Position numbers and translations under genes: made by a program. Positions 15,535 to 56,800 of a stretch of 62,526 nucleotides of DNA are shown in pieces (within the stretch, counting starts at the first letter, position 1; each line of letters opens with the position of its first letter). Under the pieces are notes generated by a model that was given only the letters and a program-made list of their open reading frames with translations, ran no database searches and was not told where the DNA came from. Source of the stretch: an uncultured Clostridia bacterium (GTDB lineage: Bacteria > Bacillota > Clostridia > Christensenellales > UBA3700); the NCBI GenBank assembly GCA_944380395.1, contig CALWHM010000006.1, forward strand, positions 1 through 62,526, read 5' to 3'.

Positions 15535-15562
15535 TTTACTCTCAAAAGAAATGTGTTATAAT
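15535..15562 (+). promoter_or_regulatory. promoter placed for a leaderless mRNA (88-aa protein)
   Basis: TATAAT (15557-15562) ends exactly 6 nt before ATG 15569; a weak TTTACT lies 16 nt upstream of it. Initiation 7 nt past the -10 falls on the A of ATG. No Shine-Dalgarno is present. Confidence 0.6.
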
Positions 15563-15568
15563 TCCCGT

Positions 15569-15835
15569 ATGGAAAAAAGCGTCAGAATATGGGCAAAACT
15601 TATTTCGGATGGGAAGGTGGCAAAGGACATCGTCTACACGGGGGATATGTTCTTTGACGAAGATTCTTTCCACGCCGCGGTGCGCGACATCTGCGACAAG
15701 CTGGATATATCCACGCCCGTGGTACTTCCGCAGCATTTTACCAACTTTATCCGCTTCCACAATTGCAGATTTTACGAATGGGACTTTGTGGACAGCTTTG
15801 ACTACGACAAATTTATTTTGGAAGACTGCAATTAA
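15569..15835 (+). CDS. conserved hypothetical protein, 88 aa
   Basis: A small soluble protein with no signal or membrane segment and no named family recognised. It has a mixed composition consistent with a folded domain (VRIWAKLISDGKVAKDIVY, then FHAAVRDICDKLDISTPVVL) and an acidic C-terminus (DFVDSFDYDKFILEDCN). The ATG at 15569 is preferred over 15551 because the latter lies upstream of the TATAAT box and would not be transcribed. The 11 bases before the ATG contain no ribosome site. It is divergent from dnaD with 178 bp between starts. Confidence 0.75.
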   Translation: MEKSVRIWAKLISDGKVAKDIVYTGDMFFDEDSFHAAVRDICDKLDISTPVVLPQHFTNFIRFHNCRFYEWDFVDSFDYDKFILEDCN

Positions 15836-15890
15836 AGCGCTCCGCGCCCGACGCGTAATTTGTTGAAAATCAAACACAAGAAAGGCAGCA

Positions 15891-16544
15891 ATGCTTATAC
15901 CGACACGTAACTTTGAAAAAAGAGTATATGGCGCACGGAAGCGGTAAATGCGTTTCCTTGCGGCAGGGGATTTTTCGATGATTTTTTTGCGGAAATGTCG
16001 CAGGCAATACTCTTGAATAAAATTATAAAAACAGATTGCATCAGGCTGCGTTCGGTATGGGAAGTTATATATAATACCCGAAAGCGACCGTAACGGAGCA
16101 CGGAGCTTGCTTTAAGCATAGGGATTTTGCGAAAGATTTTCACAAGACGGAGCGAAGTTGCATACAGACGCGTAACTTTGAAAAAAGAGTATATGTCGCG
16201 CGGAAGCGGTAAACGCGTTTCCTTGCGGCAGAGGATTTTTCGATGATTTTTTGCGGAAAGGTCGCAGGCAATACTCTCGAACAAAATTACTTGAAAACAG
16301 ACTGCAATCAAGCGGAGTCCGGCACGGAAAGTTATAAATATACCCGAAAGCGACCGTAACGGAGCACGGAGCTTGCTTTAAGCATAGGGATTTTGCGAAA
16401 GATTTTCACAAGACGGAGCGAATGTTCATACCGACACGTAACTTTGAAAAAAAGGTTATATGGCGCGCGGAAGCGGTAAAGGCGTTTCTTGCGGCAGGGG
16501 ATTTTTCGATGATTTTTTGCGGAAAGGGCGCAGGCAATACTCTT
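15891..16544. repeat. noncoding tandem repeat, 265-266 bp period, ~2.5 copies
   Basis: Copies begin near 15891, 16156 and 16422, each opening with a near-identical CGTAACTTTGAAAAA block (15906, 16171, 16437). Copies 1 and 2 are full and copy 3 stops after ~123 bp. The stretch from CGAAAGCGACCGTAACGGAGC to ACAAGACGGAGCG is almost unchanged between copies 1 and 2, while the middle (around 16010-16070 and 16280-16335) has drifted. Reading frames on either strand owe their length to the repetition and lack ribosome sites. Each copy contains a small GCTTGCTTTAAGC hairpin. It fills most of the 860-bp gap between the 88-aa gene and rex. Confidence 0.85.
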
Positions 16545-16637
16545 GCGGTATTGGCAAGACATTTTTGCAAAAAGGCGCGGAAAAGACGCGCCGCAGGGAG
16601 CGCACTTTATCCCTTCCGCGCGACATAGTGAAAACAG
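16545..16637 (+). other. residual intergenic DNA before the rex promoter
   Basis: Contains one GC-rich hairpin (GGCGCG / CGCGCC, 16574-16592) without a T-run; nothing else recognised. Confidence 0.4.
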
Positions 16638-16666
16638 TTGACAAAATTTCTTTTATGCAATAGAAT
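16638..16666 (+). promoter_or_regulatory. rex promoter
   Basis: TTGACA and TAGAAT with a 17-nt spacer; transcription would start ~25 nt before the GTG. No clear Rex operator (TTGTTAA...TTAACAA) is visible here, so autoregulation is not supported. Confidence 0.85.
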
Positions 16667-16698
16667 GTTATATACTTATGTGTTAAGGAGGCAGAAAG

Positions 16699-17319
16699 GT
16701 GGAAAAGACGGTATCGCCGGCTATAATAAAGCGCCTGCCCAGGTACTACCGCGTAATCACTCACCTGGACGGGGAGGGACAGACGAAAGTATCCTCAAAA
16801 GTCATTGCGCAGCTTATGGATATCACAGCTTCGCAGGTCAGGCAGGATTTTTGCAGCTTCGGGGGTTACGGGCAGCAGGGCTACGGTTACGACGTGAAAA
16901 AGTTGAAGGCGGAGCTGGAAAACATAATGGGGCTGAACAAGCGCCACAATATGATAATCATCGGCGCGGGTAACATAGGCAGGGCGCTTGCCGGTTACAA
17001 GGGCTTCGGGGACGGCTTCAAAGTCACCGCCGTGTTCGACATCGCGCCCGAGGGGATAGACTTAAAGGACGTGCAGGTGCTGCCGATGAGCGGACTTAAA
17101 GAGTATTGCGCGGAAAACAAGGTGGACATTGCCGTGATTGCAACGCCCCGTTCGGCGGCTGCGGACGTGGCTCAGGCGGTGGTGGACGCGGGAATTAAAA
17201 ATATTTGGAATTTTGCACCTACGGAGCTGGATCTGCCCGGCGACGTGGTGGTGGAAAATATATCGATGAGCGAAAGCCTTTATGTGCTTAGCTATTATAT
17301 GAACCGACAGGAGGGGTAA
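16699..17319 (+). CDS. rex: redox-sensing transcriptional repressor Rex
   Basis: 206 residues, standard length. N-terminal winged helix (~1-80; RLPRYYRVITHL, ITASQVRQDFCSFGGYGQQGYGY) and a Rossmann domain for NADH/NAD (GAGNIGRAL near 94-102). The C-terminal helix that swaps between subunits (SESLYVLSYYMN) is present. Rex senses the NADH/NAD ratio and represses fermentative and reductive genes in anaerobes. The GTG start has AAGGAGG 7 nt upstream. greA begins 6 bp after the stop. Confidence 0.97.
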   Translation: MEKTVSPAIIKRLPRYYRVITHLDGEGQTKVSSKVIAQLMDITASQVRQDFCSFGGYGQQGYGYDVKKLKAELENIMGLNKRHNMIIIGAGNIGRALAGYKGFGDGFKVTAVFDIAPEGIDLKDVQVLPMSGLKEYCAENKVDIAVIATPRSAAADVAQAVVDAGIKNIWNFAPTELDLPGDVVVENISMSESLYVLSYYMNRQEG

Positions 17320-17325
17320 GAAAGT

Positions 17326-17793
17326 ATGGCAAATGAGTTCTATATAACTCAAAAAGGTCTGGACGAGCTGAAAGAAAAGCTCAACGAACTGAAAGTGGTA
17401 AAGCGTCCGGAGGCGTCCGAGAGGATAAAGCAGGCAAGAGAATACGGCGATTTGTCCGAGAACGCGGAGTACGACGCAGCCAAGGACGAACAGGCGATGA
17501 TAGAAGCCGAGATCAAAAAGATAGAAGCTCAAATAGAAAACGCTGTGGTCATAGAGGAAGTTCAGGGCGGCAGGACCGTCACGCTGGGCTGCACGGTAAC
17601 GCTTTTGGACCTTACTTACAACGAAGAAGAGGAGTGGACGATAGTCGGCACCAGTGAGGCTTCTTTCAGCGATCACAAGCTGAGCAACGATTCTCCTTTG
17701 GCAAAGGCGATAATCGGCAAAAAGAAGGGCAGCGTGGTGCAGGTGACTGACGTTGCCGAACCTTATGAGGTCAAAATAGTCGATATAAAGTAA
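17326..17793 (+). CDS. greA: transcription elongation factor GreA
   Basis: 155 residues. N-terminal coiled coil (~1-75) with the acidic tip [20 protein letters not shown] that enters the RNA polymerase channel to stimulate cleavage of backtracked RNA, then the FKBP-like C-domain ([22 protein letters not shown]). It sits between rex and lysS; the greA-lysS pair is common in Bacillota. Confidence 0.97.
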
Positions 17794-17825
17794 TACATTC
17801 CGAATACGGAACGAAGAGGTATAAT

Positions 17826-19325
17826 ATGGAAAAGGACGAACTTCAAGAATTGGGCGAAGCCATCCGTATCCGCCGTGAAAAGCTGGCGGCGCTTGTGGCG
17901 GAAGGGCGCGATCCTTTCAAAGAGGTAAAATTCGATAAGAACGCCGAAAGCTCTGACATAAAGCAGAAGTATTCCGAATACGAGGGCAAGGAAGTCAAAA
18001 TTGCGGGGCGCATGATAGCAAAGCGCGTTATGGGCAAGGCAAGCTTTGCCAAAATTTCCGATTTCGGAGGCACGATACAGATATATGTCAGCCGCGACGA
18101 TCTGGGCGAAGAAGCCTACGCGGGCTTCAAAAAGTCGGATATAGGCGACGTGATAGGCGTTACGGGCGTGGTGTTCACCACCAAGACGGGCGAAATATCC
18201 GTTCACGCTCATTCCATATGCCTTTTGGCTAAATCCCTTATGCCTCTTCCCGAAAAATATCACGGCTTGAAGGATACGGATACGCGCTACCGTCAAAGGT
18301 ACGTGGACCTTATCGCAAATCCGGAGGTCAAGGAAGTGTTCGTAAAGCGCAGCAGGATAATAAGCTGCATTCGCTCTTTCCTTGACGCCAGGGGATATAT
18401 AGAGGTGGAAACGCCTATTCTCAACACGATAGCAGGCGGAGCTTCCGCCCGTCCGTTCATCACCCACCACAACACGCTGGATATGGATATGTTCATGCGC
18501 ATAGCGCCCGAACTTTATTTGAAAAGGCTGGTCGTGGGCGGCTTTGAAAAGGTGTACGAAATAGGCAGACTTTTCCGCAACGAAGGTATGGACCCCAAAC
18601 ACAACCCCGAGTTTACCACGGTGGAATTGTATCAGGCTTATGCCGATTACAATACGATGATGGACCTTACCGAACAGCTTTTCGGCTATATAGCGGACAC
18701 GGTGTGCGGCACGCGCAAGATAACTTATCAGGGCGTTGAGGTGGATCTCACTTCGCCGTGGCGCAGGCTCACAATGGTGGACGCGGTCAAAGAGTACACG
18801 GGTATAGACTTTACCTGCGACGACGTGGCGGCGCTTGCCAAGCAGGCGGAGGCAAAGGGCGTGGAACTGCCCAAGGAACTCACTTGGGGCAAGTTGCTTT
18901 ACGAAGTGTTCGACAGGTTGGTGGAAGAAAAGCTGGTTCAGCCCACCTTTATCCTCGATTACCCGGTGGAAGTTTCTCCGCTTGCCAAAAAGAAGGCTTC
19001 CGACCCCCGCCTTACCGAGAGGTTCGAGTTCTTCATCACCGCGCGCGAAATGGGCAACGCGTTCTCGGAGCTTAACGACCCGCTCGACCAGCGCGAACGT
19101 TTCCTTGCGCAGGTCAGGGAAAGGCAGCAGGGCGACGACGAAGCGCAGATGATGGACGAAGATTACGTAAACGCGCTTATGTACGGACTTCCCCCCACGG
19201 GCGGTCTGGGCATCGGCGTGGACAGAATGGTAATGTTCTTCACCGACCAAGCCAGCATAAGGGACGTACTCTTGTTCCCTACGATGAAGCCCATCAAAAA
19301 GGACGGCGCTTCTTCAAAGGAATAA
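17826..19325 (+). CDS. lysS: lysyl-tRNA synthetase, class II
   Basis: 499 residues, normal length. N-terminal OB fold for the anticodon (~60-150; [23 protein letters not shown]), then the class II core: motif 1 ([11 protein letters not shown]), motif 2 ([17 protein letters not shown]) and motif 3 ([15 protein letters not shown]). Attaches lysine to tRNA-Lys in the cytoplasm. No T-box leader precedes it. The stop overlaps the next start (TAATG). Confidence 0.98.
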
Positions 19326-20596
19326 TGGGGCGTCAAGGCGATAAGAATTTGAAAGCGCCGCTTTACAAGGCGGTGCTTTTGCTTAACAAAAAGGACAAAG
19401 TCCGCTTTCATATGCCCGGTCACTGCGGGTGCGGGAGCGGACTTTTTGCAAGCGCGAAATACGATCTTACAGAGCTTTTCGGACTTGACAATCTGCACGC
19501 GCCGAGCGGAGTGATAGCTCAGGCGGAAGAACTGCTTGCCCGCGCTTACGGGTGCGACAGGGCGTACATCTTCACCTGCGGCGCCACGGCGTGTATGCAC
19601 GCCGCTCTTGCGTATGCGCGCACGCGCGGAGATATATTGTTTACGGGCGATATGCACTACTCCTTTTATTCAGGGCTGGAGCTTATGGGGATAAAGGCGG
19701 AGTACGTGCCGAAAAAAGGGCTGGAAGAGCGCCTTGCAAGGGGCGCGGGCAGCCTGTTCTTCACTTCTCCCGATTACCTCGGCAGACTCAACGGCGGCGA
19801 GGAGATAGCCGCGGCATGCAAGAGGCATAACGTGCTCAGCGTTGCGGACTCCGCGCACGGGGCGCACTTTGCGTTTTCACGGCTGCTGCCGCGTTCGCTC
19901 ACGCATACGGCGGATATAACCGTGGTTTCAATGCACAAGACTATGGACGTATACGGCGGCGGCGCGTTGTTGTGCGCAAACGGACGGCACGCGGACAGTC
20001 TTGCCGCATATCGGTCTTTGGTGCACACCACGTCGCCGTCCTATCTAACGATGGCGTCCATCGACTTTGCCCGCGCGGTCTGGGAGAGGGACGGGGAAGA
20101 ATTTTACAAGGACATCGCGGAAAAAACAAGCGCGCTTTCTCTTCCGAACGGATATACCGCCGTGCGCACGGACGACATATCCAGGCTTGTGATAAACTGC
20201 GCGGGGGACGCATACGACGCGGCAAAAAAGCTGGCGCGGCAGGGAATATACTGCGAAGCCGCCATCGGCGAAAACTTGGTTTTTATCGTCACGCCGCACA
20301 ACGCGGATAAATTGCGCGTATTGAGCAAGGCATTGGAGAGCATAACGCCCGCTCCGCTCAAAAAAGCGCCCGAACTCAACCTGAAAAAAAGCGGAAAGAC
20401 GTGCGGAGAAACTCTTCTTCTGCCTGTTGAAGAATGCGCAGGGAAGATTGCCGGCGCGGACATCTGTCTGTATCCGCCGGGCGTACCCGTCATTTACCGC
20501 GGGGATATTTTGGATAAAAACGCCGTGCAATTCATAAAGGACTTTGAATGCCGCCTGTCTCCGCTTGCATACGGGCGCGTGATTGTGTTAAAATAA
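19325..20596 (+). CDS. Orn/Lys/Arg decarboxylase-family PLP protein (YaaO-like)
   Basis: 423 residues. PLP fold type I enzyme of the Orn/Lys/Arg decarboxylase class: FHMPGHCG near the N-terminus, VADSAHGAHF, and the PLP-binding Lys205 in SMHKTMD. It is shorter than biodegradative decarboxylases (~700 aa), like B. subtilis YaaO and SpeA-type proteins, and the C-terminal domain keeps the LYPPGVPVIYRGD segment. The position directly before tmk matches yaaO in Bacillota. Substrate (arginine, lysine or ornithine) is not settled. Confidence 0.9.
   Translation: MGRQGDKNLKAPLYKAVLLLNKKDKVRFHMPGHCGCGSGLFASAKYDLTELFGLDNLHAPSGVIAQAEELLARAYGCDRAYIFTCGATACMHAALAYARTRGDILFTGDMHYSFYSGLELMGIKAEYVPKKGLEERLARGAGSLFFTSPDYLGRLNGGEEIAAACKRHNVLSVADSAHGAHFAFSRLLPRSLTHTADITVVSMHKTMDVYGGGALLCANGRHADSLAAYRSLVHTTSPSYLTMASIDFARAVWERDGEEFYKDIAEKTSALSLPNGYTAVRTDDISRLVINCAGDAYDAAKKLARQGIYCEAAIGENLVFIVTPHNADKLRVLSKALESITPAPLKKAPELNLKKSGKTCGETLLLPVEECAGKIAGADICLYPPGVPVIYRGDILDKNAVQFIKDFECRLSPLAYGRVIVLK
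20565..20594 (+). promoter_or_regulatory. internal promoter for leaderless tmk mRNA
   Basis: TTGCAT and TAAAAT with an 18-nt spacer lie inside the end of the yaaO-like gene. The -10 ends exactly 6 nt before the tmk ATG, and there is no Shine-Dalgarno in between. Confidence 0.55.
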
Positions 20597-20600
20597 AGCT

Positions 20601-21224
20601 ATGTTCAAGGGAAAATTCGTCACTATAGAAGGGTGTGAAGGCGTGGGCAAGACCACGCAGGTGGAGCTGCTGAAACAAAAATTTTCGGGGCGCGACGACG
20701 TGCTGTTTTTGCGCGAACCGGGCGGCACCGCCATATCCGAAAGTATCCGCCGTATTATTTTGGACGTGGACAATAAAGAGATGTGCGGAACGTGCGAAGT
20801 GCTGCTGTACTCCGCGGCGCGCGCTCAGCTTGTGGAGCAGGTGATAAAGCCCGCTTTGAAAAACGGCATGATCGTCATATGCGACAGGTTCACGGACTCC
20901 ACGTTGGCTTATCAGGGCTATGCGCGCGGTCTGGGCGCGGATATGGTGGAAACGCTCTCTTCCATAGCGTGTTCGTCCCTTGTGCCCGACGTCACGATAT
21001 TTTTGGACTTGGATCCCGCCGCGGCTTTTTCCAGAAAGGGCGGGGCGGACAAGTCGGACAGGCTGGAACAGGCGGGAGAGGAATTTCATCGCCGCGTATA
21101 TCGGGGATATAAACTCATAGCGCAAAAATATCCCGAACGCGTGGTGAGCGTTCCCGCGGGCGGAAGCGTGGAAGAAGTACACTTTGCCGTGCTTGCCGCG
21201 CTTGAAGAAAGGGGAGTGAAGTGA
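20601..21224 (+). CDS. tmk: thymidylate kinase
   Basis: 207 residues. P-loop GCEGVGKTT at 11-19, the FLREPGGT dTMP-binding motif, the DRFTDSTLAYQGYARG segment (DRY-like) and a LID-type region near KSDRLEQ. Phosphorylates dTMP to dTDP. Only 4 nt separate it from the previous gene and no ribosome site precedes the ATG, so it may be translated from a leaderless transcript or by reinitiation. Its stop overlaps holB (GTGATGG). Confidence 0.97.
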   Translation: MFKGKFVTIEGCEGVGKTTQVELLKQKFSGRDDVLFLREPGGTAISESIRRIILDVDNKEMCGTCEVLLYSAARAQLVEQVIKPALKNGMIVICDRFTDSTLAYQGYARGLGADMVETLSSIACSSLVPDVTIFLDLDPAAAFSRKGGADKSDRLEQAGEEFHRRVYRGYKLIAQKYPERVVSVPAGGSVEEVHFAVLAALEERGVK

Positions 21225-22171
21225 TGGACCTTTCCCTTCTTCTTTCAGACAGCAAGCCGCTGGAAATATTCAAAAAGGACAAGCGCGAGGGGGAACTTTC
21301 CCACGCTTACGCGCTGTTCGGTGAGGATGTTTTCGCAATGGAATGGCTGCTGCGTGAAATGGCTAAAACGGCGGTATGTCCCGTCGGCGGCTGCGGAAAG
21401 TGCGCCGCGTGCACGGCGCTGGACGGAGGCGTGCACCCGGACGTAAAGTTTTATTCGGACAGGCTGGACGTGCGCGACGTAAACGAGCTTTTGGAAGACT
21501 GCGCCAAGTATTCCGTGGAAGGCGGCTTAAAGGTTTACGTGGTCTTTCAGCTGGACAAAACGCTTGCTCCGGCGCAGAACAAACTGCTCAAAACGGTGGA
21601 AGAACCGCCCGAAGGCGTGCTGTTTTTGTTCGGCATAGTAAAGCCCAACGCCGTGACGGAAACGCTCAGGTCGCGCTGCAAAAAGCTGTACTATACGGGC
21701 GTGGAGCAGTCCAGGCTGGAAGAGGCTCTGGAAAGAGAGTGCGGGGAAAACGAGAACAGCCGCAGGGCAGCCGCATATGCGGGAGGAAACATTTCGCGCG
21801 CGCTCAAATTCGCACAGGACGCGGAATTTGCGCGGGACGCGGACGACATAATAGCGCTTTTGGGAAGCATGCAGAAAAGCAGCGGCGTTCCCGCGGAGGC
21901 GGCAAGGCTGATACAGGACAAAGAGCACGTGGCGCGCTATCTGGACATTACGGAGATAGTGCTGGATATGATGGAAAAATACAAGCGCAAGCTTACGCGC
22001 GGAGGCGGCGGCATAGCGCACATCGCGCAGTCTTTTTCCTATGCCGCATTGGGACAATGCGAGTATCTGGTCAACGACTGCCGCAAGAGGTTGGAGAGCA
22101 ACTGCGCTCCTTCCGCCGTGCTGGACACGCTTTTATTCGGAATTTTGGAGGTCAAATATAAATGTCGCTGA
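21224..22171 (+). CDS. holB: DNA polymerase III delta' subunit (HolB)
   Basis: 315 residues. Clamp-loader AAA+ fold with the zinc-binding CGKCAACTAL cluster (CPVGGC before it), KLLKTVEEPPEGVLFLF and the LRSRCKKLYY segment. The Walker A is absent (LFGEDVFAMEWLL), as expected for delta' which does not hydrolyse ATP. ATG 21224 overlaps the tmk stop; GTG 21221 is an in-frame alternative. The tmk-holB-ricT order is conserved in Bacillota. Confidence 0.93.
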   Translation: MDLSLLLSDSKPLEIFKKDKREGELSHAYALFGEDVFAMEWLLREMAKTAVCPVGGCGKCAACTALDGGVHPDVKFYSDRLDVRDVNELLEDCAKYSVEGGLKVYVVFQLDKTLAPAQNKLLKTVEEPPEGVLFLFGIVKPNAVTETLRSRCKKLYYTGVEQSRLEEALERECGENENSRRAAAYAGGNISRALKFAQDAEFARDADDIIALLGSMQKSSGVPAEAARLIQDKEHVARYLDITEIVLDMMEKYKRKLTRGGGGIAHIAQSFSYAALGQCEYLVNDCRKRLESNCAPSAVLDTLLFGILEVKYKCR

Positions 22172-33314: not shown

Positions 33315-33339
33315 CGAAAACCGCTGATTCAAAAATATA

Positions 33340-33373
33340 CGAACGGCGAAAAGTGCCGTTCGTTATTTTTTCT
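33340..33373 (+). terminator. terminator of the pyr/ABC-F transcript
   Basis: CGAACGGC-GAAAAGT-GCCGTTCG followed by TTATTTTTTCTC, 26 nt after the stop. Confidence 0.92.
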
Positions 33374-33395
33374 CACGCTTTTTTCGCCCACGAGG

Positions 33396-33517
33396 GCACC
33401 GCATATAAGGCGCGTGATACTGTGTCAAAGCGACTTTTTTCTTGGTCACATACGCATAGTATGCTCCCTGCGATAAAAAGCCGCTTTTCCTTGTCTGACA
33501 CGCCTTCTCTGCGGTGC
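33396..33517. repeat. long imperfect palindrome, left boundary of a composite element
   Basis: 122 bp. Outer arms GCACCGCATATAAGGCG and CGCCTTCTCTGCGGTGC pair with few mismatches; the pairing continues inward to a GCATA/TATGC tip near 33459. A diverged copy in inverted orientation lies at 34098-34216 (shared: CACGCGCCTTATATGC, TTGACA-AGC, GTGTCAG). Confidence 0.75.
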
Positions 33518-33598
33518 TTTGTGTCGCAACTTAAAACAAGGTGTTTTTCATAGTTTATACACCTATCATATACCTGTTAGGCGTACGCCGCATTAACT

Positions 33599-33686
33599 AT
33601 TATGCAATAAAGCGCGGCAAAATCGCATTTTGCCAAGCGTAACCTATAAAATTCGCCGTGCGGATTTTTCCGCTAGGACGGAAAGG
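33599..33686 (+). repeat. 88-bp direct repeat, copy 1
   Basis: Identical over 88 bp to 33918-34005 (period 319 bp). Contains a perfect hairpin GGCAAAAT-CGC-ATTTTGCC and a second small one CGGATTTTTCCG. No coding potential seen. Confidence 0.93.
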
Positions 33687-33692
33687 GGTGAA

Positions 33693-33741
33693 GTTTTGCG
33701 GCAAACGCCAATGCTTAACATTTTACCACTTGCCGCAAAAC
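33693..33741. repeat. inverted repeat with perfect 12-bp stem
   Basis: GTTTTGCGGCAA (33693-33704) and TTGCCGCAAAAC (33730-33741) pair fully around a 25-nt loop. Confidence 0.85.
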
Positions 33742-33788
33742 GAGGGGAAAACCACAGCGGAGCGTGTTGGGTTTGCCCATAAAAGCGT

Positions 33789-33863
33789 AGGCGCAAAGTG
33801 CCGTGCGAAGTTACCATTCTCTTTGATTATAACTTTATCGTACGGCACTTTCATTCGGCGCCT
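33789..33863. repeat. interrupted inverted repeat
   Basis: AGGCGC...GCGCCT and AAAGTGCCGT...ACGGCACTTT pair in register, with a central AT-rich loop. Lies between the two 88-bp repeats. Confidence 0.75.
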
Positions 33864-33917
33864 AAGCGAAGCGCATTATACACCTATTAGATGTAAGCAC
33901 GCTCACTTATACACATC

Positions 33918-34005
33918 ATTATGCAATAAAGCGCGGCAAAATCGCATTTTGCCAAGCGTAACCTATAAAATTCGCCGTGCGGATTTTTCCGCTAGGACGG
34001 AAAGG
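33918..34005 (+). repeat. 88-bp direct repeat, copy 2
   Basis: Exact copy of 33599-33686. After it the sequences part (GGGTGAAGTTTTGCG in copy 1, ATTAAATTTTCGCG in copy 2). Confidence 0.93.
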
Positions 34006-34097
34006 ATTAAATTTTCGCGCCTAAGTATTATAAGACTTAAAGCGTACTTGGAGCCCAAATAAAGAGCTGTCACCTTATTTTACCTGCAACACAACGC

Positions 34098-34216
34098 GGC
34101 GCATAGAAGGTGTGTCAGGCGAGGAAAGGTGATTTTTTGCGAACGAGCGTACTCCTTGTACGTGACTGAGGAAAAAATTGCCTTGACAAAGCATCACGCG
34201 CCTTATATGCGTCGCC
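34098..34216. repeat. long imperfect palindrome, right boundary of the composite element
   Basis: About 119 bp, related to the palindrome at 33396-33517 but inverted. Arms GGCGCATAGAAGG and CCTTATATGCGTCGCC, tip around GTAC-TCCTT-GTAC near 34155. Confidence 0.7.
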
Positions 34217-34232
34217 ATTCGGCAGAAAGCGC

Positions 34233-34353
34233 AACTATAAGAAAGGCGGCTGATCTCTTACGAAACCAGCCGCCTTCCTATATGATAAGGGGGAAAATTA
34301 TGAGCTTGTTATGTCAATCGGTTATCGCTCACCTGAGCGCCTCTCGTTTTGAC
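34233..34353 (-). ncRNA. candidate small RNA of ~120 nt
   Basis: On the minus strand a promoter with perfect TTGACA drives a transcript starting near 34353. It would contain a CGCTCA-GG-TGAGCG hairpin (34326-34339) and end at a 10-bp-stem hairpin (34243-34276). No open reading frame with a ribosome site is visible inside. Could instead be an attenuated leader whose gene has been lost. Confidence 0.45.
34243..34276 (-). terminator. strong hairpin ending the candidate small RNA
   Basis: AAGGCGGCTG / CAGCCGCCTT, 10 perfect base pairs with a 14-nt loop. On the minus strand it is followed by TTCTTATAGTT, a weak U-tract. Confidence 0.6.
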
Positions 34354-34388
34354 ACTAATAATATATCACTCTCTAATGGTAATGTCAA
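34349..34388. promoter_or_regulatory. palindromic bidirectional promoter
   Basis: TTGACA stands at both ends, one per strand. Plus: TTGACA 34349-34354, TCTAAT 34372-34377, 17-nt spacer. Minus: TTGACA 34388-34383, TATATT 34365-34360, 17-nt spacer. The two -10 boxes lie inside each other's spacer, so the divergent promoters fully overlap. The symmetric TTGACA...TGTCAA could also be an operator. Confidence 0.65.
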
Positions 34389-34687
34389 CGCTTTTTTCGA
34401 ACTTTTTTATAAAGATTGTGTAAAGTTTTTTATTTATTGACAAATTTTCTTCTTTACATAAAAATCGACATTAAGACGGGAAAAATGCTCTGCGACGCAC
34501 TTTTACATTTTCTTTACCTAAAAATATAGTAATTGTACGCGGCGTCTTTCGGAATGAGGGGAGTTTGCGCTCGCGGAGGATTTTCAAGGAGCGAAGCCGT
34601 AAGCGGATGAAAATAAAGATCACCCTTACGGATGACCTTTACTTTTTCCGAATGCGGCTTGGTATGAGTTATTTGCCGCAGCTTCGG
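34389..34687. other. gene-free AT-rich region
   Basis: No gene supported. TTGACA at 34437-34442 with AAAAAT 17 nt later is a weak plus-strand promoter candidate. A short near-repeat TTTTCTTCTTTACATAAAAAT / TTTTCTTTACCTAAAAAT occurs at ~34445 and ~34510. Confidence 0.4.
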
Positions 34688-34780
34688 TTAGTCGCAGTCC
34701 TTGCAGGACTTGCTCGCCTTGCTCCTGCCGGCGGACTTTTCCGTACCGGCGGAGTTTGTTTTGGCTTTATTCTTTGCCAT
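34688..34780 (-). CDS. 30-residue Lys/Ser-rich protein with CKDCD tail
   Basis: A very short gene supported mainly by its AAGGAGGG ribosome site 7 nt before the ATG. The product starts MAKNKAKTNSAGTEK, is rich in Lys, Ser and Ala, and ends SCKDCD, so it could bind metal through the CxxC. Short Lys-rich proteins of this look are scattered in Clostridia, but I cannot name a family. A regulatory, spore-related or nucleic-acid role would be a guess. No clear promoter or terminator was found. Confidence 0.55.
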   Translation of the reverse strand: MAKNKAKTNSAGTEKSAGRSKASKSCKDCD

Positions 34781-34958
34781 ATTCAAACCCTCCTTGTCAG
34801 GCTGAAATTAGTATCGGCAATTTTGCGAATATTATTCACGGGCTAAGCAATAAACCGCTTGAGGCATAAGGGCGGCGAATAAATTCCTTTATTATATCGG
34901 ATAAATTCTTAAATAGCGCGTAAATTCTTGCGCGCGCGTAAATATTTTAAAATCTAAT
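34781..34958. other. AT-rich intergenic region
   Basis: No gene seen. Contains several TAAATTC motifs (34880-34930) and a minus-strand TATAAT-like box near 34895 without a good -35. Confidence 0.35.
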
Positions 34959-34988
34959 TTGACGAATGCGCCGCATATATGTTATTAT
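34959..34988 (+). promoter_or_regulatory. promoter of the MFS transporter gene
   Basis: TTGACG and TATTAT with an 18-nt spacer. The ~115-nt leader can form three hairpins (CGCCGCGTTTACGGCG; CCGAAGGTTTTCGG; TTCCGCCGTTGTGCGGAA), matching no known riboswitch class. Confidence 0.6.
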
Positions 34989-40995: not shown

Positions 40996-41568
40996 TCAGT
41001 CGCCGTCCGCGGTATTATCCGTTCGCAAAACAGAATAGATGATCGTGTCGTATACCCCGATATTACACCAAGCCGCATTTTTGAGCGTGGCTTCATAGCG
41101 CATACCGCACTTTTTCATAACTTCTCCGGAGGCGGGATTGGCGGGAGCGTGGCGGGCTTCTATCCTGCTTGCGCGCACCTCATCAAATAAAAATTTTATC
41201 ACGGCGCGCAGGGCTTCCGTCATAATGCCTTGACCCCACCATTTGCTGCCCAAGCAATATCCTATGCGCATATATCCCGCTTTTTCGTCAATAATGCGCG
41301 CGTCTATGGAGCCTATCGGGAGCGCGTCGTCTTTAAGCGTTATCGCCCACAGATAAAATTCGTCATTATCGTAAGCGCTTATCCATCTTGCCAGCGTGCC
41401 GCGAGCCGCGCTCAATTTCGTATACGGCTGCCAAGTCAAAAACGGGGTGACTTTTTCGTCGCTCATCCAATTTTCAAAAGCCGGCGCGGTATCTGCCAAA
41501 GTAAAACGGCGCAATATAAGCCGCTCTGTAAATATGACCTGCGTTCCCTTGTGAATCATTCCTTCCAT
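40996..41568 (-). CDS. GNAT family N-acetyltransferase (RimJ/RimL type)
   Basis: 190 residues. TERLILRRFTLAD near the N-terminus, the WGQGIMTEAL acetyl-CoA loop (~120) and NPASGEVMKKCGMRYE are typical of RimJ-like acetyltransferases acting on protein N-termini or antibiotics. ATG 41568 is preferred: it lies exactly 6 nt after TATAAT and has no Shine-Dalgarno, so the mRNA would be leaderless. The next ATG (41559) has GGAAGG but too close. Confidence 0.88.
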   Translation of the reverse strand: MEGMIHKGTQVIFTERLILRRFTLADTAPAFENWMSDEKVTPFLTWQPYTKLSAARGTLARWISAYDNDEFYLWAITLKDDALPIGSIDARIIDEKAGYMRIGYCLGSKWWGQGIMTEALRAVIKFLFDEVRASRIEARHAPANPASGEVMKKCGMRYEATLKNAAWCNIGVYDTIIYSVLRTDNTADGD

Positions 41569-41574
41569 AAGATA

Positions 41575-41603
41575 ATTATAGCAGATAAATAAAGTATGCG
41601 CAA
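41575..41603 (-). promoter_or_regulatory. promoter for leaderless GNAT mRNA
   Basis: On the minus strand TTGCGC and TATAAT, 17-nt spacer; the -10 ends 6 nt before ATG 41568. Confidence 0.7.
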
Positions 41604-41850
41604 CCTGCGGCGCTTGTGCGATTTTCAGGCGGCGCATTCGCCTCGGCTTTGAAAGGGCGCGTGCAGTTCACGCAGGTAATTTTTTAATGGCGCCAAGCGC
41701 GTAAATAAGACGAATTTCGGCTTAAAATACAATGTAAAGTTAAGATAGGAACCTCAATCATATAAAAAATAAACAATAAACCGCAATTTTCAAGATATAA
41801 TCAAGCAAATATGTCGAAAAACTTTACAATATTGCAAATGTAAAAAATAT
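41604..41850. other. AT-rich divergent intergenic region
   Basis: No gene seen. A TATAAT at 41795-41800 region precedes only a 10-codon frame and is not called. A short GCGTGCAGTTCACGC hairpin lies near 41659. Confidence 0.4.
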
Positions 41851-41865
41851 TGATAATAATTATCA
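41851..41865. promoter_or_regulatory. Fur/PerR-type operator
   Basis: TGATAATAATTATCA is a perfect 7-1-7 inverted repeat and equals the B. subtilis Fur-box consensus (TGATAATNATTATCA); the Per box differs at two symmetric positions. It lies 8 bp upstream of the -35 of the PerR-like gene. Confidence 0.85.
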
Positions 41866-41872
41866 ATTTTGC

Positions 41873-41901
41873 TTGACACTCTGATTTATATGTGATAGAA
41901 T
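41873..41901 (+). promoter_or_regulatory. promoter for leaderless perR-like mRNA
   Basis: TTGACA and TAGAAT with a 17-nt spacer; the -10 ends exactly 6 nt before ATG 41908 and no ribosome site is present. Confidence 0.85.
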
Positions 41902-41907
41902 AAGAAT

Positions 41908-42321
41908 ATGAAAACGAACTACTCGGCGCAACGCGAACTTGTATATGAGGTGCTCGCAAGTACCGTAACTCATCCCACTGCGGAGTGGGTGTGGGAGAGG
42001 TGCCGCGAGAGAATGCCTTCCATAGGCAAGGCGACGGTATATCGCAATCTGGCGCTTTTGGTAAAGTGCGGCAGGGCGATAGAAGTTGCCGGTACGTTCG
42101 GAAGCTCTCATTATGACGCGCGCACGGCTCCGCACAATCATATGGTTTGCAGCGTATGCGGCGCGGTGGAGGACAGCTTTCCGTCCAAGGAATTGCAGTT
42201 GGCGCTGGAACACGAATTGCAGGACCGCGGATACAGCGGATACGGGCTGACGTTCGGCGGCGTGTGTGAAAAATGCAGGGCGAAACAATTCGACGAAATG
42301 CGCAGCAAAAGCGCAAATTAA
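41908..42321 (+). CDS. Fur family regulator, PerR-like
   Basis: 137 residues. Winged helix (~1-75; [27 protein letters not shown]) and a metal-binding dimerisation domain with [14 protein letters not shown] and CEKC supplying the Cys4 structural zinc. The pairing with rubrerythrin points to a PerR-type peroxide sensor, but the operator is Fur-like, so iron sensing cannot be excluded. Autoregulation through the operator at 41851 is likely. Apparently leaderless mRNA; the following rubrerythrin gene has a normal ribosome site. Confidence 0.92.
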
Positions 42322-42340: not shown

Positions 42341-42886
42341 ATGGCAAAATTCGTATGCAGCGTATGCGGCTATGTTTATGAAGGTGATGAGGCTCCCGCA
42401 CAGTGCCCTCAGTGCAAGGCACCCAAGGAGAAGTTTGTAAAGCAGGGCGGCGATATGAGCTGGGCTGCGGAACACGTTGTGGGCGTGGCTCAAGGTTCTC
42501 CCGAGGACATTATGGAAGATCTCAGGGCTAACTTCAACGGCGAGTGCACGGAAGTGGGTATGTACTTGGCTATGGCAAGGGTTGCCCATCGTGAAGGTTA
42601 TCCCGAAATAGGTCTTTATTGGGAAAAAGCGGCTTGGGAGGAAGCTGAACACGCAGCCAAGTTCGCAGAACTCCTCGGAGAGGTTGTGACCGATTCCACC
42701 AAGAAGAATCTGGAAATGCGCATTGAAGCGGAGAACGGCGCCACCGCGGGCAAGACGGATCTTGCAAAGCGCGCCAAGGCTCTCAATCTGGACGCTATCC
42801 ATGATACCGTTCACGAAATGGCTCGCGATGAGGCCCGTCACGGCAAGGCTTTCCAGGGTCTTTACAACAGATACTTCAAAAAGTAA
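42341..42886 (+). CDS. reverse rubrerythrin
   Basis: 181 residues with the domain order reversed: rubredoxin-like Fe(Cys)4 first ([22 protein letters not shown], shown by its CxxC pairs at ~5-8 and ~22-25), then the ferritin-like diiron four-helix bundle with [21 protein letters not shown] and [11 protein letters not shown] (ExxH motifs). Reduces hydrogen peroxide to water in anaerobes, with electrons from NADH via a reductase. GGAGG sits 8 nt before the ATG, 19 bp after the perR-like stop; co-transcribed with it. Confidence 0.95.
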
Positions 42887-47023: not shown

Positions 47024-47031
47024 GGTAGGGA

Positions 47032-49669: not shown

Positions 49670-49709
49670 AACGAATAATTATATATTGCGTAAATTCCCC
49701 GATTTACTC

Positions 49710-49738: not shown

Positions 49739-49760
49739 AAGAAAAATGAGAGGTGATACT

Positions 49761-50246: not shown

Positions 50247-51418
50247 GGGATTTCGTAAGCAGGAAGATAAGGGAGATAGCTCCCAGCGGCATCCGTAAAT
50301 TTTTCGATATAGTCAGCGAAATGAAGGACGCCATATCCTTGGGCGTGGGGGAGCCGGACTTCGGCACTCCGTGGGAGATAAGCGAGGCGGGCATTCGCAG
50401 CGTGCAGAAGGGCTTTACTCATTACACGTCCAATAAGGGCATGCCCAAACTGCGTGAAGCCATCTGCAAGTTTCTTTCGTCGCGCTATAAGGTGCATTAC
50501 GATAAGGAAGAAGTCGTGGTCACCGTGGGCGCCAGTGAGGCGATAGACGTCACTTTGCGTGCAATTTGCGACCCCGGCGACGAGGTGCTCATTCCCATGC
50601 CCAGCTATGTGTCTTACGCGCCGTGCGTATCTATGGCGGGCGGCACTCCCGTGGGCGTGGAGTGCAACGAAAGCAACGGCTTTATCGTCACCAAAGAGAT
50701 GTTGCAAAGCGTGATAACGCCCAAGACCAAAGCCATTATCCTGCCTTATCCAAACAACCCCACGGGCGCCATTATGACCCGCGCGCAGTTGGAGGACATC
50801 AGGCAGACGATCATAGACAGTGATCTTTTGGTCATCTCGGACGAGATATATTCAGAACTCACCTATGACGGAAAGCACGTGTCCATAGCTTCTTTGGACG
50901 GAATGCGCGAGCGCACCGTGCTGCTCAACGGATTCAGCAAGGCGTTTGCAATGACGGGGTGGAGGATAGGATACGTTTGCGCTCCGCGCGATATACTCGA
51001 CCAAATTCTCAAAGTGCACCAATACGCCATAATGTGCGCGCCCACAATGGCGCAGTACGCCGCGCTTGCCGCGCTGGAAACGGGCAGGGAGAGCAGATAC
51101 GAAGCCGTGGAGGAAATGCGCACGGAGTACGATTGCCGCAGGCGTTATCTGCTGCACGAATTTAACGCTATGGGCTTGAAGTGTTTTGAAGCCAAGGGCG
51201 CGTTTTACCTGTTCCCTTCCGTGGCGTCCACGGGTATGGACGGGGAGGAGTTCGCAAACGCTCTGCTCAAAGCGGAAAAAGTGGCAGTGGTGCCCGGTTC
51301 CGCGTTCGGAAAGGGCGGAGAAAATCACATCAGGGTGTCTTACGCCTACTCCCTGGAAGAGCTGGAGGAGGCGGTCAAACGCATTAAAAAGTTTTTGAAC
51401 AAAGGGGAGGAGATATGA
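50243..51418 (+). CDS. class I/II pyridoxal-phosphate aminotransferase (PatA/AspC-like)
   Basis: 391 residues. [28 protein letters not shown], and the PLP Lys in [17 protein letters not shown], then the C-terminal Arg in NHIRVSYA that binds the substrate carboxylate. Resembles the B. subtilis PatA/ alanine- or aspartate-type group; exact amino acid unknown. Coupled to the Lrp-like regulator, a conserved pair in Bacillota. Confidence 0.92.
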
Positions 51419-51867
51419 AAGTATTACTGTTGCAGGACGTAAAGGCGCAGGGTAAAAAGGACGAGATAATAGAGGTAAACGACGGCTTCGGCAGGAATTT
51501 TCTCATCAAAAAAGGACTTGCCGTTGAGGCTACGCCCAAGGTGATGAACGAATACCGTCTGCGCAAACAAAAGGAAGAAGCGGACAGGCAAAAGGAGATA
51601 GCCGCCGCCAAGGAGACCGCCGCGCGCCTGCAAGGGCAGGTGATCACGGTGAAGGTGAAGTGCGGTGAAAACGGCAAGCTTTTCGGCGCGGTCACTGCCA
51701 AGGAGATAGCGGACGCTCTTGCCGCCGCAGGGTTTAACGTGGACAAGAAGAAAGTGGTTTTGAAAGAACCCGTAAAGCTCATCGGCAGATATGAAATAGA
51801 GCTGAAACTCTATCAGGGCATATCGGCAAAAGTGGCGCTTTCCGTCACGGACGAGAGGTTGCAGTGA
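51415..51867 (+). CDS. rplI: 50S ribosomal protein L9
   Basis: 150 residues. N-terminal domain with [26 protein letters not shown], long connecting helix (~42-75) and C-domain ([34 protein letters not shown]). Binds 23S rRNA at the L1 stalk base. Overlaps the aminotransferase by 4 nt, an unusual place, as it is normally beside rpsF-rpsR or dnaB. A convergent gene starts its stop codon at the very next base. Confidence 0.97.
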
Positions 51868-52788
51868 TCAAAGCTCGCGCGTGACGCGCTCTATCACGGA
51901 GTTTACTTCAAAAGAATAAATTTCGGCGCGAAATCCCCCGTCGCATGGGCGGAGCAGCGCCGTTTTTTCTGCGCTCAAACGCATATGCGGCGGGGTGCAA
52001 AAGCCGCGGCAGCCGCTTATCGCGGAAAAAGCGTCCGCGTGCGATATGCGCCCGCACATCTCTCTGTCCCCGCACATCGCGCTTTCGCAATATACCCGCG
52101 GCAGTACGATAGGCGGATAGGACGGTATGTTTTCGCGGTAAGTAAAACAGCGCGATATTAGTTCGGGCACGCCCGCAAGCGAATACTCGCGAGTCACGCT
52201 CAGGCGGCAGGAGTCGCGCAATATGTCCGTGAGGATAATTCTATCCCCGTTTACCGCCGCGCCGTCCGTGAGGCATTTGCATACGGGGGAGTAATCCTTG
52301 TCGTATTTCAGACAATAGACAAACTGTTTTTCTCCGCAGAACCTCAATATCAAAAGCGCGCTTCCGCTTCCCGCGTGAGCGAATATATCCAAGGCGTTCA
52401 CGTTTGAAAGGGGGAGCACATCTGTATATGTCTCCCCCTGCGTTTCCAAAGTAAAATAGGGCGCGGGCGCAGAATAAAAAGTCGCCATATGCGTCACGCC
52501 CATACAGTTTGCCTGTGTGAAAAGCAGGGGCAGGGGCGGAAAAGCGCGGGTATATTTGCGCATTTTCACAAGCACGGACGCGCACTCTCCGCCCCAATAC
52601 ACCGCTCGTATCCCGCAGTTTTCGCGCAGTTTTCCGCCGCGCACTTCAAGTTTGAGCGCAGTGGGGACAAAGCGGAAGTCGTCGCAAGCCAGCACGTAAA
52701 CGTCCTCGTTCGCGCCGCACTCAATGCTGCGCGTCGGCTGCCCGTTCACCGTGAGATACCCCTTGTTTTCAAAAAACAATTTAAGCAT
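51868..52788 (-). CDS. conserved hypothetical protein, 306 aa
   Basis: No family recognised. Soluble, no signal peptide or membrane helix. Begins MLKLFFENKGYLTVNGQPT and looks beta-rich with several Cys. ATG 52788 is the first plausible start after the terminator of the upstream lipoprotein gene; the longer frame to 53070 runs into that gene. The ribosome site is poor (GGGAG ~15 nt away). It ends flush against rplI with no terminator between, so converging transcripts would overlap. Confidence 0.65.
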   Translation of the reverse strand: MLKLFFENKGYLTVNGQPTRSIECGANEDVYVLACDDFRFVPTALKLEVRGGKLRENCGIRAVYWGGECASVLVKMRKYTRAFPPLPLLFTQANCMGVTHMATFYSAPAPYFTLETQGETYTDVLPLSNVNALDIFAHAGSGSALLILRFCGEKQFVYCLKYDKDYSPVCKCLTDGAAVNGDRIILTDILRDSCRLSVTREYSLAGVPELISRCFTYRENIPSYPPIVLPRVYCESAMCGDREMCGRISHADAFSAISGCRGFCTPPHMRLSAEKTALLRPCDGGFRAEIYSFEVNSVIERVTREL

Positions 52789-52841
52789 ATAAAAACATAT
52801 GCTCCCGCGCCGCCGTTTATGCTGAGGGTTATGCGGGGCAT

Positions 52842-52867
52842 AAAAAAAGCTCCGCTTTCGCGGAGCC
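52842..52867 (-). terminator. terminator of the minus-strand lipoprotein gene
   Basis: GCTCCGC-GAAA-GCGGAGC followed by seven T on the minus strand. Confidence 0.92.
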
Positions 52868-52883
52868 GTATAAAACGTGTTTG

Positions 52884-53804
52884 TTACGCCCTTGATTCGC
52901 TTGTCAGCGCATAGGTGATGTCCCCTTCCTTGATTATTCCGGGCAGGGCGTATGGAAGGGCGGTGTTCTTTTCGTTTTCCGTGTAGCTGGAAACTATGTG
53001 GCAGCTGAAAGAAGTGCCGCTTCCGGGGAAGTCGCGCGTGAGGGAAACGGAGAGCTGACTGCCCAGCCATACCCTGCCGTCCTTGTCCGCAAAGTCGCCG
53101 CGCATACCCGTTATTGTAGCTTCCGATACCGTAACGGCAGCGGAAACGTTTTCCATGGTCACGGTGGAAAGGTCGCCGTTCTCATCGTAGTTGTAGTAGG
53201 GCACGTTCACGGAAAGTCCGCCCGCGTTTACCAAAAGGCGCGCCACCTGATAGATGAAATCGTTGTCTATATAGGCGGCGGAGGCAAAGGCGGAGTGCGA
53301 AACGTCGCCGGACTTCAACTGTTCTCCGTTCACTTTATAAGAGTAGTTGTAATTTTCTTCCGAATAAGTTCCTATTATCTCAGTAACTTTCGTTACGCCT
53401 TCGCTCACGGTGGTCGTCTTGCGGTAGGAGCGCTGCACCTTAAAGCCGGTGTCCAAAAGCGACTGCGTCTCCATTGTGGTGGAAACAGTCTTTCCGTCCA
53501 GCTCTTCCGTCACGGAAAGCGCGGAAGTGAAGTAGGTGCCGGAGGCGTGCTCCACATTCTCTCCGCCCACTATCACGGCGGAATCTATCACGCATTCGCC
53601 CGTCATAGTGAATGTGCCTATCGCGTTTTCGCCGCGGAGCACGTCATAGGTGAGCGTTTCCTTGCCGTCCGATTTACCCCACACTTCGGCGGCGGAGTTG
53701 AAAAGCACGGATTGAGTGGGTGTGGCGTTGCCGCAGGCGGCAGCCGTCACCGCTATAATAGCTGTTAAAAGTATCACGCTTATAAGCAATATCTTCTTTT
53801 TCAT
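52884..53804 (-). CDS. lipoprotein of unknown function
   Basis: 306 residues. Signal with basic start, hydrophobic core and lipobox TAAAC (Cys ~24), so membrane-anchored outside. The rest is beta-rich, with repeated T/S/V stretches (LTYDVLRGENAIGTFTMTGECVI), and no named domain. The ATG is exactly 6 nt after TATAAT with only GGGCAT between, so the mRNA is probably leaderless. Divergent from addB with 92 bp between starts. Confidence 0.85.
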   Translation of the reverse strand: MKKKILLISVILLTAIIAVTAAACGNATPTQSVLFNSAAEVWGKSDGKETLTYDVLRGENAIGTFTMTGECVIDSAVIVGGENVEHASGTYFTSALSVTEELDGKTVSTTMETQSLLDTGFKVQRSYRKTTTVSEGVTKVTEIIGTYSEENYNYSYKVNGEQLKSGDVSHSAFASAAYIDNDFIYQVARLLVNAGGLSVNVPYYNYDENGDLSTVTMENVSAAVTVSEATITGMRGDFADKDGRVWLGSQLSVSLTRDFPGSGTSFSCHIVSSYTENEKNTALPYALPGIIKEGDITYALTSESRA

Positions 53805-53810
53805 ATGCCC

Positions 53811-53838
53811 ATTATATCATAAGCGCGCGAATTTGCAA
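53811..53838 (-). promoter_or_regulatory. promoter for leaderless lipoprotein mRNA
   Basis: On the minus strand TTGCAA and TATAAT with a 16-nt spacer; the -10 ends 6 nt before ATG 53804. Confidence 0.75.
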
Positions 53839-53858
53839 AACAAAATTCAAAATAAATA

Positions 53859-53887
53859 TTGACCTTATCCGCGATATTTGGTAAATT
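53859..53887 (+). promoter_or_regulatory. addB promoter with near-zero leader
   Basis: TTGACC and TAAATT with a 17-nt spacer; the -10 ends 9 nt before ATG 53897, so the leader would be ~1-3 nt. No Shine-Dalgarno is visible. Confidence 0.6.
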
Positions 53888-53896
53888 ATTAGTGTA

Positions 53897-56800
53897 ATGT
53901 TTGAAATTATTTTGACTGACACCTTGACATCGACGCCGATACTCGACGCTTTGAAAAAAAATTACGTGCGCGGCACGCGCCATTTGGTGATAGTGCCCGA
54001 TCGTTTCACGCTCTCTTACGAGCGCGCCGTACTCAAACGCCTTGGCTTGAAAGGCACTTTCGATATAGAAGTCGCAAGTTTCAGCCGCCTTGCGGACAAC
54101 GCAATGGAGCGCGCGGGCGTGGGTGCGCTGGATTCGCTTTCCGAAGTTATGCTGCTGCGCAGGGTGATAGAGGGCAATAAGGATAAGCTGCAATGTTTTT
54201 CCCGTTCTTCTTCCCGTGAGGGCTTTTGTTCGGAGATGTACGCCGTGCTCTCGCAGATACGTGCTTCCGGGGTGAGCAGTTCCGCCTTGAAGAGCGCGTG
54301 CGAAAAACTCAAGGGAAAAACCGCGCGCAAGACGGCGGATATCGCGCTGTTGTATGCGGCGTATGAAGAGGCTATGGGCGCGTTGGAGGACAATCAGTCC
54401 AAGCTGGAACTGCTGTGCGATCTGGTCAAGGGCGGGGAGTGGAACGACGCGCACGTGTACATATCCGATTTCACGGGCTTTACCGCCGTGGAAGAGGAAA
54501 TAGTGCGCGCGTTTACGGGTAACAGTCTTTCCCTCACGCTCTGTCTGCCCGGCAGCGCGAGCGCGGAGAACGGCAGGATATATCCCCTGGGCGTCGCGGC
54601 GCGGCTGAAAGACGAAGCCGACAGAGCGGGCGTTGCCGTAAAGCAGAGTTATTACAAGCAGTTAAAGGGCGATTTTGCCGTGATGGGCGATCACCTGTTC
54701 GGTTACGGCGTTAAAAAATTCACTTCGGACGGGAGCGTGTCCCTCACCTGCGCGCCGCTGGCGGACAGTGAGATAAGGCAGGTCGCGCGGGTGATAAAGC
54801 GCGCGGTATGCGACGGCGGATACCGCTACCGCGATATGGCGGTGGTGTGCTGTGACAGAACGGAATATATGGGCGTTGTGGAAAAGGTGTTTGCCGATTT
54901 CGGCATACCCGTATATTTCGATGTGCGCACGCCGCTCACGTCCACCGCGGGAGCGCGCCTGCTTATGAGCGCGATAAACTGCGTTCTTTACGGATACAAA
55001 AAGCGCGACGTGCTGGAATTTGCCAAGTGCCCGCTCACGGGAATAAGCGCGGACAGCGCGGACGCCTTTGAAAATTACGTGCTGCACAGCGGCGTGGACC
55101 GCAGCGGTTTTATCAAGCAGTTTGAAGCGGAATTGGAGGACTTTGAGGAGGCGGAAAGGGTGCGCTCCCGCATAGCCGCGCTGCTTTCACCGCTCAAAGC
55201 GTTTGCCAAAAACGGCACGGCTAAAAAGTTCAAAGAAGCCGTCACCTTCTTCTTCAACGCCTGCGATTTCGTGAAAAACAACTTGAAACTTGCCGAAAGC
55301 ATCCGCCTTTCCGATCCCGCTCAGGCAATGGTGAACGAACAGAGCGCGTCTGCCATTTCCCGCATTCTGGATTCGGCGGAGGATATATTCGGCAAGGAGA
55401 TCATTTCCGCAAAAGTTTATATAGAAGTGCTCTTCTCCGCCATAGCCGCGCGCAAGGTGTCCACCGTTCCCCTTTCGCTGGACTGCGTGTACGTGGGTCA
55501 GGCGGGGGAGAGCAGATACGAAGACTGCAAGTATATGTTCGTGGTGGGCGCAAGCTCGGGCAAACTGCCCCCGGAAAGCACGGACAGCGGCTTGCTTACG
55601 GATATAGACATCGGGGAGTGGCGCAGATACGACGCAGACGTGCGCCCGAACGCCAAGGAGCGCAGTATGGGCTATAAATTGTCCGCGCTTATGACGCTGG
55701 TCAAGCCTTCCGAAAAACTCTTCGTCAGCTATTGCGCAAGCGATAGGTCGGGCAAAAAGACGCAGCCCGCTTCCGCCGTGCGTGAGCTTTCCGAACTTTT
55801 GGGCTTGCAGATAGAGTACGTCAAAGAAACGCCGGAGAGGATAGTGGGGGAAGAAGAGCTGGCACGGTATCTGGGCGGTATGGGCAACGCCAAGAGCGCG
55901 CTCATCACCTTTGCGCGCCTTCTGCGCGACAACGTGCGCATTTTGGATTATAAGGATATGAACGCGCTGTACGGATACGTGAGCGAAAAGTACGGCAAAG
56001 AGTATGTCGCCCATATGTCGGAAGGGCGGGATATGCCTTTTGAGGGCGGAGATCTCACGCGCGAAGTGCTGGGCAGCGGCTATGCTTCCGCCAGCGGTTT
56101 GGAGAGGTATGCCGCCTGCCCGTTTATGTATTTTATGGAATACATAATAGGCGCGAAGGAAAGGGAAGAAGCTTCCTTGAACGTGCGCGACACGGGCACA
56201 TTGCTTCACGCGGTTATGGAAAAGTTTTTCGGCAAAGATATGCCGTACGATCTAACCGCGGAAGAGCTGGAAGCCTTTGCGGGGAAAGTGATAGCTTCCG
56301 CCCTGCAAACGCCCGAATTTCTCTACCTCAAAGGTCTGCCGCCCGCAGAGCTTGACAGGCTGAAAAAGCGCGCGGCGTTTATACTGCGCCTGTTGTGCGA
56401 GAATATGGAAAAAAGCGCTTTCCGCCCCTTCAAAACGGAGCTGAAATTCGGGTTCGGAAATGAGGGCTTGCCGCCCGTGGAACTTGAAGTGGACGGCATA
56501 AAAGTCAGACTGCGCGGCGTGATAGACAGGGTGGACAAGTGGAAGGACAACGTCATAGTCGTGGATTACAAGTCCAAAAAAGCTTCCACGATGTTGGTCG
56601 AACCGCTCAGCGTGGCAAAGGGCGAACGCATTCAGACGTTCATCTATATGGCAGCTCTTCTTAAATCGGACAAGTCGCTCAAACCCGCGGGGGTATTCTA
56701 TCTGCCGCTTGGCAACGACTACGTGCCCAAGAATATGACGAGGAACAGATATTATTATGTCGGCTTTGCGTCAAACGACCCGGAAATCGTCAGGGCGTGC

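Follow-up and report, generated by a model that had tools for sequence, protein, structure and literature searches.

Introduction

Leaderless genes, whose mRNA begins at the start codon, are a known but uncommon bacterial class. In the passages of Zheng et al. (2011, PMC3160421) that bear on this point, 56 of 209 Firmicutes genomes are predicted to contain them, at an average of 4.2% of genes and mainly in Lactobacillales and Mycoplasma. Capp-Switch mapping of three solventogenic clostridia, as given in part of that report (PMC9045289), assigned about 2-3% of transcripts to the leaderless class, with a 5' untranslated region under 6 bp. Here we analyse the promoters and start codons of six genes in a 62,526-nucleotide stretch (the window; contig CALWHM010000006.1 of assembly GCA_944380395.1) from an uncultured Clostridia bacterium of the order Christensenellales. 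A first-pass annotation of this DNA had proposed a set of leaderless genes in it and regarded such mRNAs as rare in Bacillota, a view that the two surveys temper.

The genes of the window resemble the class of Zheng et al., in which a TANNNT box lies about 12 nucleotides (nt) before the start codon and which stands alongside genes led by Shine-Dalgarno (SD) sites; that model, in the passages cited, also includes orthologs that lack a leader in some genomes and are SD-led in others. Unlike its Firmicutes cases, in Lactobacillales and Mycoplasma, those described here come from an uncultured Clostridia-type order, which is not named in the same passages. In Deinococcus-Thermus, the -10 box similarly adjoins the open reading frame and leaderless mRNA is expressed (PMC12340547); that system, compared from its abstract-level description, belongs to another phylum, whereas here -35-like elements and a TGn motif accompany the -10 box. 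The solventogenic clostridia belong to the same broad group, but leaderless transcripts were measured there, at least in the part of the report cited, whereas ours are predicted from sequence with the help of orthologs from the genus and family. In a literature search, which was mostly without subscription papers and is no proof of absence, none of the titles listed reports leaderless genes in this order. The clade and the ortholog differences resolved below may be new.

Results

Promoters abutting start codons

In five of the six genes the -10 box ends exactly 6 nt upstream of the ATG, and these genes are very probably leaderless, in that their mRNA would begin at the start codon. We call gap the number of nucleotides between the end of the -10 box and the start codon. 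The genes, with their promoters, are as follows.

15535..15832, plus strand: 88-amino-acid (88-aa) open reading frame; ATG at 15569; TTTACT at 15535-15540, 16-nt spacer, TATAAT at 15557-15562.
20565..21221, plus strand: tmk (dTMP kinase); ATG at 20601; TTGCAT at 20565-20570, 18-nt spacer, TAAAAT at 20589-20594.
41002..41603, minus strand: GNAT acetyltransferase; ATG at 41568; TTGCGC at 41598-41603, 17-nt spacer, TATAAT at 41575-41580.
41873..42318, plus strand: Fur-family perR-like regulator; ATG at 41908; TTGACA at 41873-41878, 17-nt spacer, TAGAAT at 41896-41901.
52887..53838, minus strand: lipoprotein-like protein; ATG at 53804; TTGCAA at 53833-53838, 16-nt spacer, TATAAT at 53811-53816.
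53859..57109, plus strand: addB; ATG at 53897; TTGACC at 53859-53864, 17-nt spacer, TAAATT at 53882-53887.

The first-pass annotation had the coordinates of the five gap-6 genes right, and its gap of 9 nt for addB was confirmed. A -10 box placed 6-7 nt before the start, as in leaderless genes, is found in all five and is absent from addB in this genus. The six bases of the gap are TCCCGT (88-aa gene), AAAGCT (tmk), TATCTT (GNAT), AAGAAT (perR) and GGGCAT (lipoprotein), and TGn precedes all six -10 boxes, that of addB included. A -35 element at 16-18 nt had been claimed for every gene but the first; the spacing stands, but the exception does not, as TTTACT, with four of six letters, sits 16 nt upstream of the first -10 box. 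The -35 elements of tmk and of the GNAT gene each match just three of six consensus letters. The normal GGAGG site attributed to neighbouring genes was found before the ATG at 42341 (rubrerythrin, a family name taken from that annotation).

Excess over chance in the genome

Since the examples were picked post hoc, we considered that -10-like hexamers might be common upstream of genes, with one distance picked out from among them. In a sample of 462.5 kb (the window and 20 further stretches, each of 20 kb), exact TATAAT does occur before any ATG 3-12 times at each other gap between 0 and 25; at gap 6 it peaks at 18, with no peak at this gap for GTG (2) or TTG (6). In a genome-wide count with exact TATAAT over 1.78 Mb, TATAAT-N6-ATG (N6, other spacings likewise) was found 63 times, against 27 for N8, 26 for N9 and 16 for the reversed pattern. 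The excess also persists outside the window and in the order, and congeners share the gap, so that chance is a most improbable explanation.

Genes were called in the sample by a simple hexamer model that leaves upstream signals unused, which left 315 genes whose start could be used. At gap 6, a TANNNT box with five or more of six letters preceded 14 of them; at every other gap from 0 to 35 it preceded 0-10. Strong promoters, defined as a -10 plus a -35 at 16-18 nt with a score of at least 10 (at least 11 in a stricter set), were found at gap 6 before nine genes, at gap 7 before five, at gap 8 before none and at gap 9 before three; gaps 9-27 held 0-3 each, and a second rise appeared around 28-36. 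Strong promoters thus lie mostly in two modes, 6-7 and about 28-36.

Of the 261 genes called outside the window, 11 had a strong promoter at gap 5-7, against an expectation of about 3.1 (Poisson P 0.0004). Inside it the count was only 4 of 54, because the caller set the start of the 88-aa gene elsewhere. Leaderless-type genes number 15 of 315, including four of the window's genes, or very roughly 4% of called genes once background is subtracted. Among the 15 are genes whose products we take to be relatives of MiaB, YggS, FtsA, RarA, an NFACT protein and MnmE; their Pfam matches are UPF0004 with Radical_SAM, Ala_racemase_N, SHS2_FTSA (below cut-off), RuvB_N with AAA, NFACT_N and TrmE_N.

Start codon, preceding base and conservation in the genus

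When promoters scoring at least 11 were counted at gap 6 in the 462.5 kb, 14 preceded ATG, 1 GTG, 3 TTG, 0 CTG, 5 GTA, 5 AAT and 1 TGA. The gap-6 excess was therefore seen for ATG and for neither GTG nor TTG.

In bacteria, transcription favours starting at a purine with a pyrimidine directly before it, at -1. T occupied position -1 in all 14 ATGs with a promoter of score at least 11 at gap 6, against 34 of 67 at gaps 8-28, and in 47 of 63 genome-wide N6 matches against 11 of 26 N9 matches (Fisher P 0.006). For called genes that start with ATG, T at -1 was found in 14 of the 15 of leaderless type and in 149 of 266 others. This bias indirectly fits the A of ATG as the first transcribed nucleotide.

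We compared seven species of the genus, our own included. The tmk, perR and lipoprotein genes have gap 6 in all seven, and the six bases within the gap vary. The 88-aa gene was located in four congeners, with gap 6 in three and gap 7 in one. The GNAT gene was located in two, of which one has gap 6 and the other a leader carrying GGAG.

Several observations weigh against leaderless starts. At gap 4, promoters scoring at least 11 are also raised (ATG 10, GTA 11, TTG 8, GTG 6), the GTA peak being partly due to sites that read GTATG, and gap 28 before ATG holds 11. T is frequent at -1 in other genes too, as the 149 of 266 above indicate. SD matches of at least five letters, found before 2 of 15 leaderless-type genes and 150 of 300 others (Fisher P 0.007), agree with the earlier statement that gap-6 genes have no SD site, but part of this result is mechanical, since the place of an SD site is taken up by the -10 box; one of the two matches is that of perR, whose GTGAT belongs to its promoter. 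Conservation of the gap extends beyond gap 6: addB has gap 9 in all seven species, and the leadered genes at 16699, 25913 and 49761 likewise hold theirs in the genus (31-32, 23-24 and 22 nt). Lastly, tmk might also be read from a longer mRNA, because its ATG lies 4 nt past the upstream stop codon.

This position of tmk, whose -10 box overlaps that same stop, would also suit another explanation: the promoters may be real and the proteins nevertheless translated from longer, read-through mRNAs or initiated further downstream. For perR, the GNAT gene, the lipoprotein gene and the 88-aa gene, however, the nearest called genes upstream lie on the opposite strand. Tmk leaves no later start because its P-loop begins a few residues after the ATG, nor does the lipoprotein, whose signal-peptide-like N-terminus begins at the ATG at 53804, and the gap-6 excess depends on ATG. 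We therefore regard read-through and downstream starts as very unlikely and favour leaderless starts at these genes.

Leader state of orthologs in the family

Four ortholog sets gave 79 rows, of which 34 have gap 6, 12 have gap 9, 29 have a gap of at least 10 and 4 have no promoter; gaps 5, 7 and 8 do not occur. An SD-like match is present in 7 of the 34 gap-6 rows against 25 of the 29 leadered rows.

The tmk set (30 rows) has gap 6 in nine (seven from our genus, two from another), gap 15-32 in 19 and no scored promoter in two. All 28 promoter-bearing rows have the promoter near the ATG, with TTG and TGTG-type elements recognisable in most, and an SD-like match of at least four letters is found in 15 of the 19 leadered rows against none of the nine gap-6 rows. 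In a tree of the tmk proteins, well-supported branches make two changes necessary to account for the two gap-6 groups, without giving their direction, gain or loss. For perR, gap 6 is found in all seven species of our genus and in one species of another, the other ten rows being leadered in nine cases and without a found promoter in one. The situation of addB in other genera is the reverse of that in ours, with gap 6 in eight of nine rows examined. The lipoprotein set (15 rows) has gap 6 in nine, gap 9 in five and a leader in one. Orthologs thus differ in this state while a promoter in front is retained.

The gap-9 class was considered as a second mode with a 3-nt leader and rejected, as 61 genomes of the order hold 1384 matches for N9 and 1572 for N8, so that N9 is not enriched; gap 9 is therefore taken as local to addB and the lipoprotein gene. 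The same counts bear on the possibility that transcription starts 1-5 nt before the ATG throughout, giving near-leaderless mRNAs with very short leaders. Gaps 7 and 9 do exist (5 and 3 of 315 genes), and addB, with gap 9 throughout the genus, has a predicted leader of about 3 nt. However, gap 6 is the mode, T at -1 indicates A as the start and N9 is not above N8. Short leaders are thus an unlikely account of the gap-6 genes, for which we retain initiation at the A of ATG.

Distribution in the order and the phylum

For clade counts, only exact TATAAT before ATG was scored, anywhere in the sequence and not only ahead of genes. In 60 genomes of the order, our own excluded, N6 was found 2000 times, N8 1545 and N9 1358; the excess of N6 over N9 is 5.8 per Mb in these genomes and 20.7 per Mb in our own. 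For the phylum outside the class, these two spacings were counted in 59 genomes, where N6 (1812) hardly differs from N9 (1784): its excess is 0.2 per Mb (Wilcoxon P 0.52), and N6 is the higher in 22 genomes and the lower in 28. By N6/N9, the order differs from the phylum outside the class with P 3e-7, and the order seems to use leaderless starts more than other Bacillota.

When our own genome is counted with the order, N6 is commoner than N8 and N9 averaged in 48 of 61 genomes, and 17 of the 61 are significant singly at 0.01; the trait is therefore uneven within the order. The ratio to the reversed pattern is 2.26 for 121 genomes of the order (own included) and 1.22 for 289 of the phylum outside the class, but this control seems biased because TATAAT is slightly commoner near ATG than near GTA at most gaps, and we therefore relied on N8 and N9.

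Three genomes of family f150 (G360, G403 and G421), of 0.9-1.1 Mb and listed as 99-100% complete, are among the strongest for N6 against reversed counts, with 25:0, 36:4 and 33:1.

Identity and surroundings of the six genes

The tmk product matches TIGR00041 (E 1.1e-52) and the GNAT protein PF13302 (E 3e-35). The perR-like protein matches PF01475 (E 1.4e-18) and falls under the NCBIfam PerR cut-offs, PerR being its nearest Fur-family relative. The addB product matches TIGR02773 (E 2.7e-116), under that model's cut-off. No match to NCBIfam or Pfam was found for the lipoprotein, nor for the 88-aa product at E 0.001. For the latter gene, a start at the upstream in-frame ATG at 15551 was tried and rejected: it overlaps the promoter, and of the four congeners one pair has TTG at that position and the other pair lacks a start codon.

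Immediately 5' of the -35 of the perR-like gene lies a perfect inverted repeat, TTGATAATAATTATCAA, at 41850-41866, with similar sequences in most congeners. It resembles a Fur-family operator, and given this operator-like repeat the leaderless regulator may control its own expression. The tmk promoter (20565-20600) sits within the final codons of the upstream gene, which has weak decarboxylase matches and whose TAA stop supplies the last T of the -10 box. The lipoprotein gene and addB are divergent, with 92 bp between their ATGs and two outward-facing promoters; in most loci examined both have gap 6 or 9. Elsewhere in the window, the simple gene caller placed no gene in 33315-34965 (about 1.65 kb), in otherwise dense surroundings.

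Discussion

The geometry, its excess over chance, its dependence on ATG, the conservation of the gap, the differences in state between orthologs and the distribution by clade are all observed directly. From these we infer an actual 5' end at the A of ATG and translation from that AUG. Initiation at the A of ATG, as the first-pass annotation proposed, is supported by the sharp gap, the two modes, the dependence on ATG, T at -1, the genus-wide gap and the SD-like sites usual in leadered orthologs.

The most likely mechanism is as follows. A promoter of the housekeeping-sigma type, with -35, TGn and -10, would place the RNA polymerase start on the A of ATG, so that the first codon of the resulting mRNA would be the start codon. 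The ribosome would then recognise this 5'-terminal AUG without an SD site. Many other genes of the same genome have leaders with SD sites. The first step, a promoter that sets transcription to begin at the A of ATG, is well supported by the sequence; the second, ribosome binding at a 5'-terminal AUG, would follow by analogy with known leaderless mRNAs.

On balance, we consider it more likely than not that leaderless expression of a conserved core-gene set is heritable across this uncultured Bacillota order, and that individual genes switch repeatedly between leaderless and SD-led states by gain or loss of the leader, with promoter and start codon retained. Gene finders built around SD sites may place starts wrongly in this order. 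Orthologs of tmk and perR are natural pairs with and without a leader, in which the effect of leader gain on expression is directly measurable. Should 5' ends bear this out, leaderless starts would be a regular and not an incidental feature of this group of Bacillota.

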